Source: Rickettsiales bacterium
GTDB taxonomy: Bacteria; Pseudomonadota; Alphaproteobacteria; Rs-D84
Reading direction: 5' to 3'
Assembly: GCA_031266915.1 (NCBI GenBank)
Contig: JAISAB010000011.1
Span: 1-35,639, forward strand
Length of the DNA stretch: 35,639 nt
Notes under the pieces: model-generated
Databases searched by the model: none
Seen by the model: only the letters and a program-made list of their open reading frames with translations
Told to the model about the DNA's origin: nothing
Translations under genes and position numbers: made by a program
In this document: positions 7,016-30,272 of the stretch, one piece after another
Layout: each line of letters begins with the position of its first letter
Position numbering within the stretch: the first letter of the stretch is position 1

Positions 7016-7714
7016 ATGTTTTTCAAACGGAAGAAAAAATCAACCGCCCCCGGGCATGTGGCGTTTATCTGCGACGGAAACCGACGCTGGGCGCGGCGGC
7101 TCGGTATGCCAGCATCGTACGGTCATGAAAAAGGCGCCGATATTGTCGATGCGGCGGCCGAATATTTAATTGAACACGGCGTCACGACCGTCAGTTTTTT
7201 TCTTTTCTCGATTGAAAATTGGGGCCGCGATAAAAAAGAAGTAAAGTTCCTGATGGACTTTATGTCGCGCGAAATGCCAAAGCATGTAAAGCGCGCCGAT
7301 GAAAAAAACATCCGCGTGCGGTTCGTCGGCCGCCGCGACCACTTGTCGCCGGCCATTGTCGAAATGTGCGACAGGCTGGAACGCGACACATGCGAAAACA
7401 CGGCGGGCACGATTGTGTTCGCGCTGGACTTCGGCGGCCAGGACGAGATTGTCCGCGCGGCCAACGCGGCAATTGCGGCAGGCGAACCAGTCGACGCTGA
7501 AACGTTCGAGGCCTTGATGGACACCGGCGAATTCCTGCCGATTGATTTGCTGGTTCGGACCAGCGGCGAACAGCGAGTGTCCAATTTCATGCTGTGGAAA
7601 CTGGCCTATGCGGAATTGATGTTTTATCCAAAGGACTGGCCGGCGCTGCGTGCGCGCGACTTTGCCAGAATGCTGGATGAATTCGACAAGCGCCAGCGAA
7701 GATACGGAAAATAA
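7016..7714 (+). CDS. uppS: Undecaprenyl diphosphate synthase
   Basis: This cis-prenyltransferase extends farnesyl diphosphate with IPP to the C55 carrier lipid used for peptidoglycan and surface glycans. It has 232 residues. Motif I is HVAFICDGNRRWARR (residues 14-28) with the essential Asp at 20. FSIENW follows, and the C-terminal signature LLVRTSGEQRVSNFMLW with LAYAELMF is intact. The start has an AAGGA site. It is the first gene of the envelope operon; cdsA starts 16 bases after its stop. Confidence 0.96.
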   Translation: MFFKRKKKSTAPGHVAFICDGNRRWARRLGMPASYGHEKGADIVDAAAEYLIEHGVTTVSFFLFSIENWGRDKKEVKFLMDFMSREMPKHVKRADEKNIRVRFVGRRDHLSPAIVEMCDRLERDTCENTAGTIVFALDFGGQDEIVRAANAAIAAGEPVDAETFEALMDTGEFLPIDLLVRTSGEQRVSNFMLWKLAYAELMFYPKDWPALRARDFARMLDEFDKRQRRYGK

Positions 7715-7730
7715 TCAGGGGGGAACGCAC

Positions 7731-8366
7731 ATGACCAATACAACAAAAAGAATCTTGGTGGGCGCCGTTATGGGACTGATTGCCGCCTGTGCGGGCGCGG
7801 CCGAATACTTTGGCATACACGCGGTTCACTGGCTGACCGTCGCGATTGTCGCCCTGATGACGGGCGAGGTCTTGCGGGCGATATATAAATCAAAAATCAA
7901 AAATAAATTTATCTGTTATCTGTGCTCTGTTATCTGTGCTCTGCCGTTGTTGGCGGCGGCGTACGCGGTGGGCGGGCGGCCTTGGATTATCCTGTTGCTG
8001 CTGATGACAATCAGCGCGGCCGACGTCGGCGCGTGGTTTTTCGGCCGGCTGTTGGGCGGCGACAAGATGTGGGAAAAACTGTCCGCGGGCAAAACATGGG
8101 CAGGACAAATTGCAGGCATCCTGTGCGGCACGTTCGCGTCGGTCATGTATGGGCTGCTGGGGACAGACACCTTTTTGCCCCAGCTGTTGTGGATTGGCGT
8201 CAGCATATCGCTGATGTCGCAGTATGGCGATTTGACGGCCAGCTGGATTAAGCGCAAGCTGGGCGTCAAGGACTTTGGCAATATCCTGCCGGGTCACGGC
8301 GGCGTCGCCGACAGATTCGACGGATGGATTTACGTCCTGCCGATTGTTTGGCTGGTGATGCTGTAA
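7731..8366 (+). CDS. cdsA: Phosphatidate cytidylyltransferase
   Basis: CdsA makes CDP-diacylglycerol, the precursor of bacterial phospholipids, in the inner membrane. At 211 residues it is shorter than the usual 260-290, with an abbreviated N-terminal membrane part. The diagnostic C-terminal signature is complete: WIKRKLGVKDFGN, then PGHGG and DRFDG (about residues 176-203), which carry the metal-binding acidic residues. I start at ATG 7731, behind GGGGGGAA. The segment SKIKNKFICYLCSVICAL (about residues 53-70) is encoded by a 15-bp direct repeat and AAATCA-type repeats (7888-7945), so one membrane stretch seems to derive from repeat DNA. Confidence 0.92.
   Translation: MTNTTKRILVGAVMGLIAACAGAAEYFGIHAVHWLTVAIVALMTGEVLRAIYKSKIKNKFICYLCSVICALPLLAAAYAVGGRPWIILLLLMTISAADVGAWFFGRLLGGDKMWEKLSAGKTWAGQIAGILCGTFASVMYGLLGTDTFLPQLLWIGVSISLMSQYGDLTASWIKRKLGVKDFGNILPGHGGVADRFDGWIYVLPIVWLVML
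7888..7945 (+). repeat. Short direct repeats inside cdsA
   Basis: 'aaatcaaaaatcaaaaataaa' is followed by two copies of the 15-mer 'ctgttatctgtgctc'. The unit length is a multiple of three, so the frame is kept, and it encodes the hydrophobic ICYLCSVICAL. Confidence 0.8.
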
Positions 8367-8390: not shown

Positions 8391-9443
8391 ATGGAAACAT
8401 TATTGACAATTGTCGCATTATTGGTCGTTTTGGGCGTGGTGGTTTTTGTGCACGAATTGGGACATTTTTGGGCGGCGCGCTGGGCGCGCGTGCGCGTCAA
8501 CGTGTTTTCAATCGGATTCGGGCCGGCGCTGGTGAAATGGACGGACAGGCGCGGCACGGTGTGGAAAATATCCGCGCTGCCGCTGGGCGGATACGTTTCC
8601 ATATACGGCCAGGAAGACATGTTCGACCGCAAGAAATACGCCGGCATGACGCCCGCGAAGAAAAAGGGCCATTATTTGTCCGCGCCAGCCTGGAAACAGT
8701 TTATTATTATCGCCGCCGGCGTCGCGATGAACTTTGTTCTGGCGTGGGGCATTTATTCCACGATGTTCGCGTTCAAGCCGAAAACAGTCCAGCTGCCGAT
8801 TATCGGACAAGTTGTCCAGGAAACGCCCGCGTTCCGGGCCGGCGTCCAGGCCGGCGACATCATTGTGCGCGTGGACCAGGCGAAAATCACAAACTGGGGC
8901 GAATTGATTATCGCCAAGGAATTGGCCGCCAACCGCGACGCGAACGTGTTGCTGGCGCGCGGCGACAGATTGGTCCAAATCAAATTGACGCCGGCCGAAA
9001 AATGGGGTCTGATTGCGGACGGGTCGAAGACAGAGCTTCGCAAAAAAGGAATCATCGGCGCGATGTATTCGGGACTGCGCGAGACATATGTCCAATCGAA
9101 AACGCTGTTGGTCGTGCTGAAGCAAATCGTGACGGGCGAGCGCTCGTCGAAACAATTGGGCTCGTTCATCACAATTGCCGAGGTTTCAGGCAAAGCAATG
9201 GCCATGGGATTCTTCGCGCTGCTGTCTATCATCGCGCTGCTGTCCGTGAATTTGGCGGTTATCAATCTGCTGCCGCTGCCGGTGCTGGACGGTGGGTATT
9301 TGATGATACTTATCATAGAGGCCATCATTCGCCGCAAGCTGGGTGGCAAAGGCATGGAGATTGCCATAATCTGCGGCTGGATTTTAATTATGGGACTGTT
9401 CGCGCTGACCATGTGGAACGACATCGCCAGGCTGCTCGCTTAA
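8391..9443 (+). CDS. rseP: RseP-family site-2 intramembrane metalloprotease
   Basis: The protein has 350 residues. The zinc motif HELGH (21-25) lies in the first membrane helix, and the second motif NLLPLPVLDGG (292-302) in the last part carries the third metal ligand. One PDZ-like domain occupies about residues 120-190 (FRAGVQAGDIIVRVD). The enzyme cuts transmembrane anchors, for example anti-sigma factors or remnant signal peptides, after a first periplasmic cut. E. coli RseP has two PDZ domains and about 450 residues; the one-PDZ form here is frequent in other phyla. The gene sits between cdsA and bamA as in many proteobacteria, but dxr, often between cdsA and rseP, is absent. The gap of 24 bases carries an AAGGGAAA ribosome site. 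Confidence 0.95.
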   Translation: METLLTIVALLVVLGVVVFVHELGHFWAARWARVRVNVFSIGFGPALVKWTDRRGTVWKISALPLGGYVSIYGQEDMFDRKKYAGMTPAKKKGHYLSAPAWKQFIIIAAGVAMNFVLAWGIYSTMFAFKPKTVQLPIIGQVVQETPAFRAGVQAGDIIVRVDQAKITNWGELIIAKELAANRDANVLLARGDRLVQIKLTPAEKWGLIADGSKTELRKKGIIGAMYSGLRETYVQSKTLLVVLKQIVTGERSSKQLGSFITIAEVSGKAMAMGFFALLSIIALLSVNLAVINLLPLPVLDGGYLMILIIEAIIRRKLGGKGMEIAIICGWILIMGLFALTMWNDIARLLA

Positions 9444-9475
9444 AGAATAAAGAGTAAAGAATAGAGAATAAATAT
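9444..9475 (+). repeat. AGAATAA heptad repeats before bamA
   Basis: 'aagaataaagagtaaagaatagagaataaata' is a degenerate 7-bp repeat filling the rseP-bamA gap. It is complementary in type to the TTTATTC repeat inside the bamA signal sequence at about 9511-9540. Confidence 0.75.
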
Positions 9476-11773
9476 ATGAGAAGTTTTATAATGAAATCGT
9501 TTTCTAGACCTTTATTCTTTATTCTTTATTCTTTATTCATTTGCACCGCGTCTGCGGCGACGGTGTCGCGCATTGACATCACTGGAAACCAGCGCATGGA
9601 CGCGGAATCGGTGCGCATTCTGGCCGATGTGAAAGTCGGCGACAATCTGACATCCGAAGACGTCAACCAGGTCGCGAAACGCCTGCAGACATCCGGATAC
9701 TTTTCCAAGGTGAATGTCAAGCTGAACGATGGCGCGCTGCTGGTCGCGCTGTCCGAGGCGCCGACGGTCGCCGCCGTAACCGTCGAGGGCAACGACGACA
9801 TATCGACCGAGGATTTGAAAAAGGAAATCCGCCTGGCGGAACGCGCGTCGTACGACGAATCCGTCATCGGCGGCGACGTGCAGCGAATGCTGGTCCTGTA
9901 TCAGCGCAAGGGCTTTTTCGGAACAAAAATCGAACCGAAAAAAATCACTCTGCCAGATAATCGCGTGAACGTCGTCTATGAAATCAAAGAAGGTCACCCG
10001 ACATACATCAGCCGCATTCGATTTTCAGGCAACAAAGTATTCAACGCGCGCACCCTGCGCGGCGAAATTTTATCCCAAGAACACGCCTGGTGGAAATTCA
10101 TGACGCAATTCGACGTGTTCGACGAAGACCGCATTCAATACGACCAGCAGATGCTGCGCCAGTTCTATCTGCGCAACGGTTACGTCGATTTCCAGGTCCG
10201 GGACGCGACCGGCGTCTTTACCACGGACAGGCAATATTATTCCGTGAACTTTACCGTGGACGAGGGCGAAAAATACTGCATCGGAAAATTGTCGGTCAAG
10301 AATCCCTTTGACGATATTCCCGACCAGGAATTGATGCGGGCGCTGACTGTCGCGACCGGCGATGTCTATAACGTGGACCAGGTCGAGGAAACCGTCGCGA
10401 CCCTGCGCGGCGTTATCGCGGGCCATGGATACGCTTTTATTAATGTCGAGCCCACACCTAAGAAAAACGACGCGAACCGGACAATCGATTTGGAATTCAT
10501 CATCGCCAAGACGAACCGCGTTTATCTGAACAGCATAAATATCCTGGGCAACGTCCGCACATTCGACGGCGTTATCGAACAATTGCTGCCGATGCGCGCG
10601 GGCGACCCATTCAGCCTGCAGACGATAGAGGAAGGCCGCCAAAGATTGATGCGCACCCGTTATTTCAAGGACGTTCAGATGATTCCGACGCGCGTCACGG
10701 GCGAAAACCTGATGAATTTGGACGTCAAACTGGAAGAACAGCCCACCGGCGAATTGTCCGGCGGCATAGGCTGGTCCAACATCAACGGATTCATGGTTGA
10801 TGCGGGCATTACCGAAACGAACTTTATGGGCCGCGGCCAGACTGTCCAGCTAAAGGGTTCGGTCGCCCAGTACCAGAAACAGGCCTTGTTGGGCTTTACC
10901 GAACCGTATCTGTGGGACCGCGCGCTGTCCGGCGGATTCGATATTTCATACGCGATGTACGACTATTCGTCCCTGGGCAGCTTCGGATATGACCGCGATT
11001 CCCTGATGGTGGCGGGGCGCTTGGGCTGGAAATTGACGGACCACTGGAGCCAGACCCTGCGCCTGTCGGCGTCGTTCGACCAGAACTATGATTTGCACAG
11101 TTCCGGATGGCGGGCCGCGAACCTGTACACGCTGGGCACGAATGTGCGCTATCATAATCTGAATACTAATTTTGCCCAGAACACGCATACCGGCGTCGTC
11201 GCGAATTTGGGATTGTCCTATACGGGATTCGGCAGCACGGAAACGTTCATGCGCTATAACGCGGATATAATCGGATTGGTAAATTTCCTGGATGACAGAT
11301 GGCAGCTGAAATCAACCCTGGAATTCGGAATGGTGCAGCCGCTGGAAGACGATTATATCTCGCGCGTTTACCGTTACTTTTTGGGCGGCGAATCCCTGCG
11401 CGGGTTCGACGTCGCGGGCGTCGGTTCGCGCAACTGGGCGTACCGCAACTATTCCTTGGGCGGCATGTGGAAACTGAACGGTTCCACGCAGTTGAATTTC
11501 CCCATCTTTATCCCGGACGAATATCCGATAAAGGGATTTGTTTTCGCGGACTATGGCGTTTTGGGCAAACCGCCGAAAGATGAATACACATACTGTTACG
11601 GCGCGGACTGCAGGGATAACCTGGTTGACCAGGATTTGCGCACGTCGGTCGGTGTCGGCATTTATTGGAACACGCCTATGGGCCCGATGAATTTCAGCTG
11701 GGGCTGGCCTTTGAAGGCAAACAAATACGACCGCGAGCGCAAATTCCTGCTGTCGTTCGAAACACAGTTCTGA
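9476..11773 (+). CDS. bamA: Outer membrane protein assembly factor BamA
   Basis: BamA folds and inserts outer-membrane beta barrels. The 765-residue protein starts with a signal peptide cut near ASAA (about residue 27). Five POTRA domains follow to about residue 350 (first ones starting SRIDITGNQRMDAESV and AAVTVEGNDDISTEDL). The C-terminal barrel contains the lid motif LRGFDVAG (VRGF/Y type, about residue 642) and ends in the beta signal FETQF. The start may be 9476 or the second ATG at 9491 (MKSFSRP); neither has a strong ribosome site. The hydrophobic core LFFILYSLFI is encoded by the heptad repeat TTTATTC. Downstream, the usual lpxD, fabZ and lpxA are missing, so lipid A genes are elsewhere or absent. 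Confidence 0.96.
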   Translation: MRSFIMKSFSRPLFFILYSLFICTASAATVSRIDITGNQRMDAESVRILADVKVGDNLTSEDVNQVAKRLQTSGYFSKVNVKLNDGALLVALSEAPTVAAVTVEGNDDISTEDLKKEIRLAERASYDESVIGGDVQRMLVLYQRKGFFGTKIEPKKITLPDNRVNVVYEIKEGHPTYISRIRFSGNKVFNARTLRGEILSQEHAWWKFMTQFDVFDEDRIQYDQQMLRQFYLRNGYVDFQVRDATGVFTTDRQYYSVNFTVDEGEKYCIGKLSVKNPFDDIPDQELMRALTVATGDVYNVDQVEETVATLRGVIAGHGYAFINVEPTPKKNDANRTIDLEFIIAKTNRVYLNSINILGNVRTFDGVIEQLLPMRAGDPFSLQTIEEGRQRLMRTRYFKDVQMIPTRVTGENLMNLDVKLEEQPTGELSGGIGWSNINGFMVDAGITETNFMGRGQTVQLKGSVAQYQKQALLGFTEPYLWDRALSGGFDISYAMYDYSSLGSFGYDRDSLMVAGRLGWKLTDHWSQTLRLSASFDQNYDLHSSGWRAANLYTLGTNVRYHNLNTNFAQNTHTGVVANLGLSYTGFGSTETFMRYNADIIGLVNFLDDRWQLKSTLEFGMVQPLEDDYISRVYRYFLGGESLRGFDVAGVGSRNWAYRNYSLGGMWKLNGSTQLNFPIFIPDEYPIKGFVFADYGVLGKPPKDEYTYCYGADCRDNLVDQDLRTSVGVGIYWNTPMGPMNFSWGWPLKANKYDRERKFLLSFETQF
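9511..9540 (+). repeat. TTTATTC heptad repeat coding for the BamA signal core
   Basis: There are four near-perfect tandem copies of TTTATTC. Because 7 is not a multiple of 3, all three frames give the same periodic peptide (F-I-L-Y-S-L-F), which is hydrophobic and stop-free. Confidence 0.85.
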
Positions 11774-18321: not shown

Positions 18322-18588
18322 TAAAGAATAAAGAAAAAAGAATAGAGAATAAATATATGCTCGGTCTAAGTTCCCCTCCCTTGGAAAGGTGGCATGCGTA
18401 GCATGACGGGATGGTTTGAGGCTTCGAGATTAAACTCTTATTCTCTAACCACCTCCCCGTCTGCCTTCGTTCGTCGCCGCCGCCGCGGCGTCCGAACTTC
18501 GGCGCGACGGTACTCCTCCACAGGAGGAGAACTTAGACCGAGCATATATTTATTCTTTATTCTTTATTATTTATTCTTTATTTTATTA
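18322..18588. repeat. MITE-like element with about 50-bp inverted ends
   Basis: The left end 'agaataaa...atatatgctcggtctaagttc' (about 18322-18371) and the right end 'gaacttagaccgagcatatatttattct...' (about 18530-18588) are inverted copies. They enclose about 160 bp with 'cctcccttgg...', 'acctccccgtctgcc' and 'ctcctccacaggaggag' palindromes. There is no transposase. The outer part of the ends is the AGAATAA/TTTATTC heptad repeat. It fills the gap between the secreted protein and the phage cluster. Confidence 0.7.
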
Positions 18589-21237: not shown

Positions 21238-22182
21238 TTAAACTTTAAAATCCGTCCTGGCTTTTAATATTTGTGCGCCCGCGGACAGCGGCCGAATCGG
21301 TATCGGTTGTATGCGCAGCGCGCCCGCAACCGCATCCAATCCGTCGTCATACTGTGACGCACCAAGCGGCGACCAGCCTAGCATTTCCGACAACAGCGGC
21401 GTGTTCGCAACCCGCCTGTGCGCATGCATCCGGCCAGTTGTCAGCAAGGGTTCTATGGAATCCAGGATTCGGGTCTCCTTTCTCTGGTGGTTGACGATTT
21501 TCTGAACGACGACGGGCTGGCCGCGCTTTTGCGCGGCCTTGCGCATGATTTCTGGCAAAGCGTTGCCGATGCCGTTGACCTCAATGGCGATTCTGTTGGT
21601 TCCGTGCCGGCGCATAAAATCCAAAACCGCGCCGCATTGCGTCGCCAACGGATGCAAGTCTTCGTCGGACACCGTCAAATATAAAATATCGTGGATAAAA
21701 ACGCGCCTGTTTCTGTCGTCGCGGTAAATCAGGACGCAGACGCTGCCGTCGGATTTGACGCGTCCGCCCGACGGGTCCCAGTACATGGCCATACCCGTTA
21801 AGGTGAAAGAGCGAAGAGCGCAGAGCGAAGGTGATTCGTTATTATTAACATCTTCCACCTGCGACCTGCGCTCTACGCTCTGCCGCGAAGCGGCAAGGCG
21901 CTCTTCCACCTCTATTGTTGCGGTTCCGGGATTGAATTCGCCGCTGTAAAAATGCAGAGCGCCAGGGTCCAAGCGCGCTTTTTCCTCGCTGATATATTCC
22001 AGCATCATCTGCGACGAAAAATGCCGCGCGCCCACGGTTTCGCGCAATTGTTCGACCTTGCTCAGCGGGAACAGCTGCGGCCAGGCCGGCGTTCCGTCGG
22101 AATCCACAATCGGAATTTTCAATTCCCGATACCCGATTAAAAAAGGGGTTGAATTTTCAAAACTTTGATATACTCTAGACAT
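21238..22182 (-). CDS. Terminase large subunit, C-terminal nuclease part
   Basis: This 314-residue product corresponds to the part of podovirus-type TerL after the ATPase domain. The RNase H-like nuclease has its metal-binding acids in place: YWDPSGG (Asp136), AIEVNGIGN (Glu201) and YDDGLDAVAGAL (Asp279-283). The first 75 residues (FLIGYRELKIPIVDSDG, SSQMMLEY) are the normal linker region. A new ATG with no in-frame extension upstream starts the gene. Residues of about 92-126 are an insertion coded by 'gagcgaagagcgcagagcg' repeats and their inverted counterpart (21808-21910), yet the frame is kept. The matching ATPase part lies at 25845-26450, 3.7 kb away. Confidence 0.88.
   Translation of the reverse strand: MSRVYQSFENSTPFLIGYRELKIPIVDSDGTPAWPQLFPLSKVEQLRETVGARHFSSQMMLEYISEEKARLDPGALHFYSGEFNPGTATIEVEERLAASRQSVERRSQVEDVNNNESPSLCALRSFTLTGMAMYWDPSGGRVKSDGSVCVLIYRDDRNRRVFIHDILYLTVSDEDLHPLATQCGAVLDFMRRHGTNRIAIEVNGIGNALPEIMRKAAQKRGQPVVVQKIVNHQRKETRILDSIEPLLTTGRMHAHRRVANTPLLSEMLGWSPLGASQYDDGLDAVAGALRIQPIPIRPLSAGAQILKARTDFKV
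21808..21910. repeat. Inverted short-repeat insert within the terminase nuclease gene
   Basis: 'gagcgaagagcgcagagcgaag' at the left and 'gcgctctacgctctgccgc...ggcgctcttcc' at the right form an imperfect inverted repeat of GAGCG-type units. It adds about 35 residues between the linker and the first catalytic Asp, in frame. Confidence 0.75.
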
Positions 22183-25753: not shown

Positions 25754-25775
25754 ACGCCCCGTTGGGGCGTTTTTA
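25754..25775 (+). terminator. Terminator of the dnaB/HTH block
   Basis: ACGCCCC-gtt-GGGGCGT followed by TTTT, directly after the stop codon at 25752. Confidence 0.88.
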
Positions 25776-25863
25776 AATAGCAAATAGCAAATTTGGTGCA
25801 AGATTGGGCTGTGGTGCTATAAACGGCACCCCATCTGCTATTTGCTAATTGCTATTTGCTATT
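25776..25863. repeat. TAGCAAA repeat tracts at the terminase break
   Basis: 'aaatagcaaatagcaaatt' (25776-25794) and the inverted 'ctatttgctaattgctatttgctatttt' (about 25838-25864) flank a short spacer. The second tract overlaps the 3' end of the terminase N-part and encodes its last residues (ANSN and stop). Confidence 0.85.
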
Positions 25864-26450
25864 TTGTAAATCGTGTCCATCGCGTGCGGTGTTCCGATAT
25901 AAATCATTGCGCCGTTTGGCGACAGGATAAAATCCAGTTCGCGCAAACGCGTGCGCAGGATTTCCCGTTTCTGCGCTGTGTTGCAGGTGTTGGGAACCTC
26001 TACGTCGTCGCAAATAATCAAATCCGCGCGCATGCCCGTTATGTTTCCGTGAATTCCCTGGCATATGACCGACGGTTCGCGAATCCCGACGGGGCGCTGT
26101 ATCGTTATCTTGTGCGCGCCCCATTCTTTTCGAATCGCCGGCAGCATATGCGCGCAGGCCGGATGGTTTTCCAAAATATGCCTGATATGCGATACCATTC
26201 GCGACGACAGATTGCTTTCCGCCGATAAAATCAAAATCCGGGTTTCTGGCCGCAGACGCAAAACGCACGCGGCGAACACGCCGACGACGGATGATTTTCC
26301 GGAATGGCGGAACGCTTTCAGCAATCCGCGCCGCGGCGGATTATCCAGCACCTCGGCCAGAAATTCCATTATCTTTTTATGATGCCCTGGCGTTTCAAGA
26401 TTCAGCAGTCCGTTCCAATCGTCTAAAAACCTAAAGCATTCCGTAATCAT
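25845..26450 (-). CDS. Terminase large subunit, N-terminal ATPase part
   Basis: The 201-residue product holds the packaging ATPase: Walker A region LLKAFRHSGKSS (43-54), Walker B DLIICDDVE (143-151) and the coupling motif YIGTPH (184-189). These drive translocation of DNA into the head. It stops shortly after YIGTPHAMDTIYKI, where the reading frame enters TAGCAAA repeats. The nuclease half continues at 22182-21238 on the same strand with no recognisable conserved block missing between them. Its start overlaps the end of the tail fibre gene by 20 bases. Both parts keep catalytic residues, so a two-subunit terminase is possible; simple disruption is the alternative. Confidence 0.88.
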   Translation of the reverse strand: MITECFRFLDDWNGLLNLETPGHHKKIMEFLAEVLDNPPRRGLLKAFRHSGKSSVVGVFAACVLRLRPETRILILSAESNLSSRMVSHIRHILENHPACAHMLPAIRKEWGAHKITIQRPVGIREPSVICQGIHGNITGMRADLIICDDVEVPNTCNTAQKREILRTRLRELDFILSPNGAMIYIGTPHAMDTIYKIANSN

Positions 26451-30198: not shown

Positions 30199-30250
30199 GT
30201 GTTGAATGTTGAGTGTTGAATTCAACACTCAACATTCAACGCTCAATATT
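30199..30250. repeat. 'gttgaatgttgagtgttgaa' tract with inverted arms
   Basis: 'tgttgaatgttgagtgttgaa' is followed by its inverted 'ttcaacactcaacattcaacgctcaa', so an entire hairpin is made of 7-8 bp repeats. It lies just upstream of the tail tubular A start. Confidence 0.8.
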
Positions 30251-30272
30251 CGCATAATTTTTCCGTGCAAAA

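Follow-up and report, generated by a model that had tools for sequence, protein, structure and literature searches.

Background

Heptameric simple sequence repeats (SSRs) have been described in Xanthomonas and Nostoc with the units GGGAATC/GGGGAYT, and in Beggiatoaceae with the unit TAACTGA (PMC4692102, PMC4679880). For TAACTGA, PMC4679880 notes both the encoded heptapeptide and stops in all three frames. The term 'signal peptide' does not occur in the main text of either paper, and our literature search, which ran over titles and the starts of abstracts with most subscription journals outside its coverage, returned nothing on heptad-built signal peptides. A CTCTT tandem repeat encodes part of the leader peptide in Neisseria opa (PMC3960869), and Rickettsia palindromic elements (RPE) are hairpin-forming, dispersed and found in frame in unrelated genes (PMC10969869).

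The locus described here lies in a window, the whole 35,639-nucleotide stretch of DNA that we analysed, which corresponds to contig C12 of G000, a genome of 1.09 Mb. According to BamA, the relatives of G000 are gut alphaproteobacteria, Candidatus Enterousia among them. We compared a G000 repeat sample of 395,539 bp (the window plus 18 stretches selected irrespective of their repeats), a family BamA set of 30 loci (the window plus L002-L030) and the wider bamA regions L033-L110 (78 loci). The genomes compared include metagenome assemblies, with one genome per species in all comparisons. Genes and signal peptides were called by simple home-made rules using two successive callers, and signal peptides scoring 8 or more at lag 7 were counted as heptad-built.

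A heptad array codes for the BamA signal-peptide core

The bamA leader and its surroundings contain the following features:

8391..9443, plus strand: upstream ORF, putative rseP judged by sequence motifs and position
9441..9472, plus strand: left arm, opposite-strand array (TAAAGAA), period 7, 4.6 copies, 84%
9445..9538, plus strand: predicted RNA hairpin, 28-bp stem, 9445-9472 paired with 9511-9538
9478..9483, plus strand: Shine-Dalgarno-like GAGAAG, proposed by reading, 7 bases before ATG 9491
9491..9556, plus strand: predicted signal peptide MKSFSRPLFFILYSLFICTASA, cleavage after TASA according to a home-made rule
9491..11773, plus strand: bamA, five POTRA stretches and an Omp85 barrel
9510..9538, plus strand: heptad array (TTTATTC)4, Tandem Repeats Finder period 7, 4.1 copies, 100% matches

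BamA is identified by Pfam matches to POTRA (PF07244, five stretches, 3.1e-60) and Omp85 (PF01103, 2.7e-42). ATG 9491, with GAGAAG upstream, rather than the in-frame ATG 9476 is the likely start. The frame translates across the leader as PLFFILYSLFICTASA followed by ATVSRI, with the predicted cleavage junction between MKSFSRPLFFILYSLFICTASA and ATVSRI. The sequence-only reading had described four near-perfect TTTATTC copies; the four units (9511-9538) are in fact perfect and encode LFFILYSLF, the hydrophobic core of the signal peptide.

Because 7 and 3 are coprime, the hydrophobic heptapeptide encoded by such an array does not depend on the frame, as had been claimed and as translation of the array in all three frames shows. 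The accompanying claim of a stop-free heptamer holds for the coding strand and fails for the opposite strand, GAATAAA, which has a stop in all three frames, so that only one array orientation can code through.

The array is the right arm of an inverted pair. Its left arm starts at the rseP stop codon and spans the rseP-bamA intergenic gap, in agreement with the opposite-strand repeat that had been seen there. The rseP-like protein ends in ARLLA in place of the ARVFGLN-type end of the family, exactly where the left arm begins.

A predicted hairpin encloses the bamA start

The stem of the predicted hairpin (-36.6 kcal/mol, z = -8.0, with 0 of 200 shuffles as stable) encloses the bamA ribosome-binding site and start codon. 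By this folding prediction the hairpin may affect bamA translation. It is conceivable, if improbable, that the inverted arms form an mRNA hairpin hiding the ribosome-binding site and start codon, with array length tuning or switching BamA translation in a manner comparable to opa. The length and stability of the stem speak for such regulation, as does the fact that 12 of 48 heptad signal-peptide genes, G031 bamA among them, have an inverted arm in the 110 nt upstream. Against it, the other 36 genes score below 12 in the upstream-arm test, among them bamA of G013, G008 and G026, and the bamA leaders of G012, G005 and G025, read by eye, showed no such arm. Moreover, BamA being essential, switching it on and off by frameshift would kill the cell, and the stretch from the left arm to the tract contains no out-of-frame ATG. 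The start-codon hairpin is probably a side effect of the arms being inverted.

With the hairpin present in 12 and absent in 36 of these genes, conserved start-codon regulation was set aside. Phase variation was set aside too, as a change of one unit would throw an essential gene out of frame and we saw no start that could rescue it. Since a unit is 7 bp, its gain or loss shifts the bamA frame and only changes of three units are silent. A single-unit change should thus break bamA, and unit number in an essential gene should be constant modulo three.

In G005, signal peptides of heptad type are found in both of two divergent neighbour genes, L191:13549 (minus) and 13600 (plus), and their arrays are thus each other's inverted arms.

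Heptad-built BamA signal peptides recur in the family with different units

Eight of the 30 family BamA loci have lag-7 scores of 10.5-27, the next highest score being 7.0. Their units are mostly different:

Window: TTTATTC
L003: GCGCTTT
L009: TTTTGCC
L017: GTTACTG
L020: TTTTCAC
L022: TTCATTC
L026: TTTATTC variant
L027: CTTTTAC/CTTTACC

The suggestion that heptads serve as a source of signal sequence in an essential protein is therefore borne out in eight family BamA proteins, largely with different units. At the 78 loci L033-L110, with repeated sequences listed once, no BamA protein scores as high as 8 at lag 7. At L024 (G009) the BamA signal peptide comes from a period-8 repeat, (TTCTCTTA)3, the sole period-8 case among the 30 family loci.

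A check for the ancestral signal sequence had been proposed: the closest relative, L028 of the same genus, has a BamA without the repeat and with an ordinary signal sequence, and its bamA begins one base past the stop codon of rseP. In a 40-row BamA tree, a repeat label carried by 9 rows (period-8 case included) needs 8 changes, at least 6 of them forced by well-supported branches, and is no more clustered than shuffled labels. These changes may comprise losses as well as gains. No intermediate states between an ordinary and a heptad signal peptide were seen and each species is represented by one strain, so replacement is deduced from relatives that are 79-81% identical or less.

Heptad arrays are dispersed across the genome

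Among arrays with periods 2-15 in the 395,539 bp of G000, 98 have period 7, 38 have period 14 and 13 have any other period. An order-1 Markov resample used as control yielded 1 array in all. Allowing for rotation and strand, the 136 period-7/14 arrays represent 53 unit sequences. According to our home-made calls, 96 of the 136 are intergenic, 7 fall in predicted signal peptides and 33 elsewhere in coding DNA, corresponding to densities per kb of 0.70, 1.38 and 0.13, respectively. Predicted signal peptides thus have roughly ten times the array density of other coding DNA, and they hold 7 of the 40 coding arrays compared to 2% expected (p = 1.2e-5).

Repeats in metagenome assemblies can be misassembled, which could point to an assembly artefact or to chance low complexity. 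We find either extremely improbable: the tract of about 29 bp is below usual read length, the frames stay open, the same plan is found in several assemblies with different units, and the Markov control yields essentially no arrays.

The bamA tract is one of many and a second gene has a similar leader, neither of which the sequence-only reading had noted. The second copy (C3:22815-22936, 72% over query 7-110, E = 2.8e-15) likewise has both arms, the start site and the signal core. Pairs of neighbouring arrays are inverted in 10 of 39 cases compared to 3.5% expected.

Two generalizations were dropped. Arrays are not all paired hairpins, since 20 of 136 have an inverted partner no more than 400 bp away whose unit matches to one base, and coding arrays are not confined to signal peptides, with 33 of 40 elsewhere.

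Further repeats were observed in the window. Inverted TTTATTC/TAAAGAA arrays about 200 bp apart (18322-18582) flank an imperfect, G+C-rich palindrome, which is also present at numerous other sites in G000. Inverted heptad pairs are also found at 25775-25864 (AAATAGC/TGCTATT) and 30200-30251 (TGTTGAA/TCAACAC). An array of 14-bp period at 7912-7943, TCTGTTATCTGTGC, encodes the hydrophobic stretch ICYLCSVICALP within ORF 7650-8366, perhaps a membrane helix.

Heptads are enriched in predicted signal peptides

With the first caller, 8 of 67 G000 signal peptides score at least 8 at lag 7, compared to 0 at lags 4-6, 8, 10 and 11 and 1 at lag 9. Codon shuffling within the 67 signal peptides leaves a mean of 0.16 reaching a lag-7 score of 8. 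The second caller gives 9 of 78 at lag 7 and 0-2 at other lags. Among internal segments, 5 of 507 random ones and 1 of 113 hydrophobic ones reach 8 at lag 7, but the hydrophobic ones also give 5 at lag 6 and 3 at lag 9; Fisher tests of 9/78 against these two sets yield 1e-5 and 0.0016, respectively. The 9 include L148:4802 (minus), which resembles a membrane anchor and is a doubtful signal peptide kept in the count. The signal-peptide heptad excess is not due to composition alone. The overlap of signal peptides with heptad repeats that had been put forward for checking is hence an enrichment in the 395-kb G000 sample.

The earlier view that tracts supply hydrophobic segments wherever they land applies to signal-peptide cores; most arrays are intergenic, and those inside coding regions encode other heptapeptides.

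In few-array family members, no heptads were found in the sampled signal peptides of G002 (0/3), G025 (0/7) and G017 (0/10), and G025 has a heptad array in bamA despite its 0/7. In Enterousia the count is 1/13, the one being L165, a doubtful row kept in the count. In the bamA regions L033-L110, 264 signal peptides were called and none reaches the threshold at lag 7, so the heptad trait belongs to part of the family. As the loci of G026 were selected by repeat pattern and those of G005 partly so, the fractions of 15/24 (G026) and 12/33 (G005) are not whole-genome estimates.

Arrays also lie within housekeeping proteins

G000 heptad arrays also occur in frame within housekeeping proteins; the identities of enolase, MnmE, phosphoglycerate mutase, MutS and ThrRS are backed by solved-structure matches. 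RsmH and GpmI are presumptive names. Compared to solved homologues, the array region of enolase is a short insertion five residues before the conserved PMMN, those of MutS (two) and ThrRS are larger insertions, and those of MnmE and phosphoglycerate mutase lie in loops that align poorly; phosphoglycerate mutase has no clear insertion at the array.

A 99-bp element is found in frame, at 89% identity, in MutS (L135:10520-10618), which carries a second heptad insert besides, and in a DacC-type peptidase (L138:18910-19008). A dispersed heptad-armed element recurs at several sites, including window 21801-21894 inside the minus-strand ORF 21238-22182, and elsewhere in frame in several genes.

Units by genome and the origin of the arrays

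The distribution of two-unit sequences was compared in 12 genomes. TTCATTC2 has 81 matches in G026 and 0 in the 11 others. TTTTCAC2 has 18 in G005, 1 in G031 and 0 in 10 genomes. TTTATTC2 has 34 in G000, 19 in G009, 5 in G005, 3 each in G012 and G031, and 0 in 7. GGTTACT2 has 1 in G008, in bamA, 5 in G031 and 0 in 10. Units can thus be genome-specific, but not all are, TTTATTC2 being spread over five genomes. The 21-mer (TTTATTC)3, the one unit covered by that search, was found in 2 of 398 Pseudomonadota genomes, one of which is G000.

In G026, among 38 arrays read, (TTCATTC)2 or more is present in at least 11 called signal peptides, where it encodes SFFILHSSFFIA or a close variant. These include the signal peptides of LptD (Pfam 5.8e-38) and BamA. 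The entry frame is 2 in six of the 11 and 0 in five, and the exit frame is 0 in 9 of 11, so the arrays are not in random frames. This bias fits selection or the copying of a ready-made module.

The orthologues listed here with their genomes each have a heptad signal peptide, but its unit differs from genome to genome:

DacC-type peptidase S11: G000, G005, G031
L143 family: G000, G005, G026
L140:15740: G000, G005
L190:8169/L153: G005, G013 (tails matched by eye, plus BLAST)
L123/L180:2521: G000, G026

The protein at L114, which we call PpiC-like as a guess, has no Pfam domain and one weak NCBIfam match (E = 0.0031).

One explanation for the arrays is local slippage only: they would be born in place at T-rich hydrophobic codons, with no copying between sites and with selection merely tolerating them. 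In many bacteria, no long simple repeats are commoner than heptamers, and polymerase slippage has been proposed, as reported in PMC4692102 and PMC4679880. Units also differ between orthologues, and the single GGTTACT2 match of G008, in bamA only, fits local birth there. Several observations run counter to this explanation. Units used in signal peptides are found at numerous places in their own genome but seldom or never in relatives, a second gene has the same leader plan (C3:22815-22936), and two unrelated genes share the 99-bp element. Furthermore, upstream inverted arms are present in 12/48 heptad signal-peptide genes compared to 3/426 others. We consider local slippage alone unlikely.

Discussion

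In our judgement the most probable account, held with good though incomplete confidence, is that dispersed 7-bp arrays, partly carried on hairpin-forming elements, have multiplied in G000 and some of its relatives and recurrently replace signal-peptide cores. Arrays would grow by 7-bp slippage and would be copied between sites through recombination or template switching. An array landing at the 5' end of an exported-protein gene with its T-rich strand as coding strand would overwrite the old signal core and, in bamA, the rseP-bamA junction as well. It would be retained because a signal peptide needs just a hydrophobic core.

We also lean, by a smaller degree, towards a broader hypothesis in which frame-neutral arrays are portable modules that overwrite the signal peptides of essential exported proteins, genomes drift to a 'house' signal peptide, and turnover is driven by repeats rather than by point mutation. 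House-type heptapeptides are SFFILHSSFFIA in G026, FTFHFSL in G005 and FILYSLF in G000.

Signal peptides are required by all exported proteins yet barely conserved, and the birth of new ones is seldom visible. A repeat with a unit length coprime to three would provide a hydrophobic segment in every frame, a signal-peptide source readable in the DNA itself. The origin and turnover of signal peptides, even in BamA, would thereby become directly testable, and selfish or slippage-born DNA would have been put to essential use.

Compared with known systems, the arrays resemble bacterial heptameric SSRs in their 7-bp units, here above chance, and in their many dispersed, mostly intergenic arrays (96/136), some of them inverted or within ORFs. 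The published heptameric SSRs have one main unit and regulatory or quadruplex roles, whereas here units vary by genome and encode signal-peptide cores. As in opa, the bamA repeat lies within the leader-peptide coding region; opa has a pentamer in a phase-variable surface-protein family, whereas here heptamers lie in single-copy essential genes, with units replaced between species and no switching shown. The 99-bp element in MutS and DacC and the heptad-armed element at several sites are like RPE, a palindromic element being found in frame in several unrelated genes, a likeness by description. RPE are about 150 bp and form conserved peptide families in Rickettsia, whereas the elements described here have 7-bp tandem arms and many units, with signal peptides among their sites.
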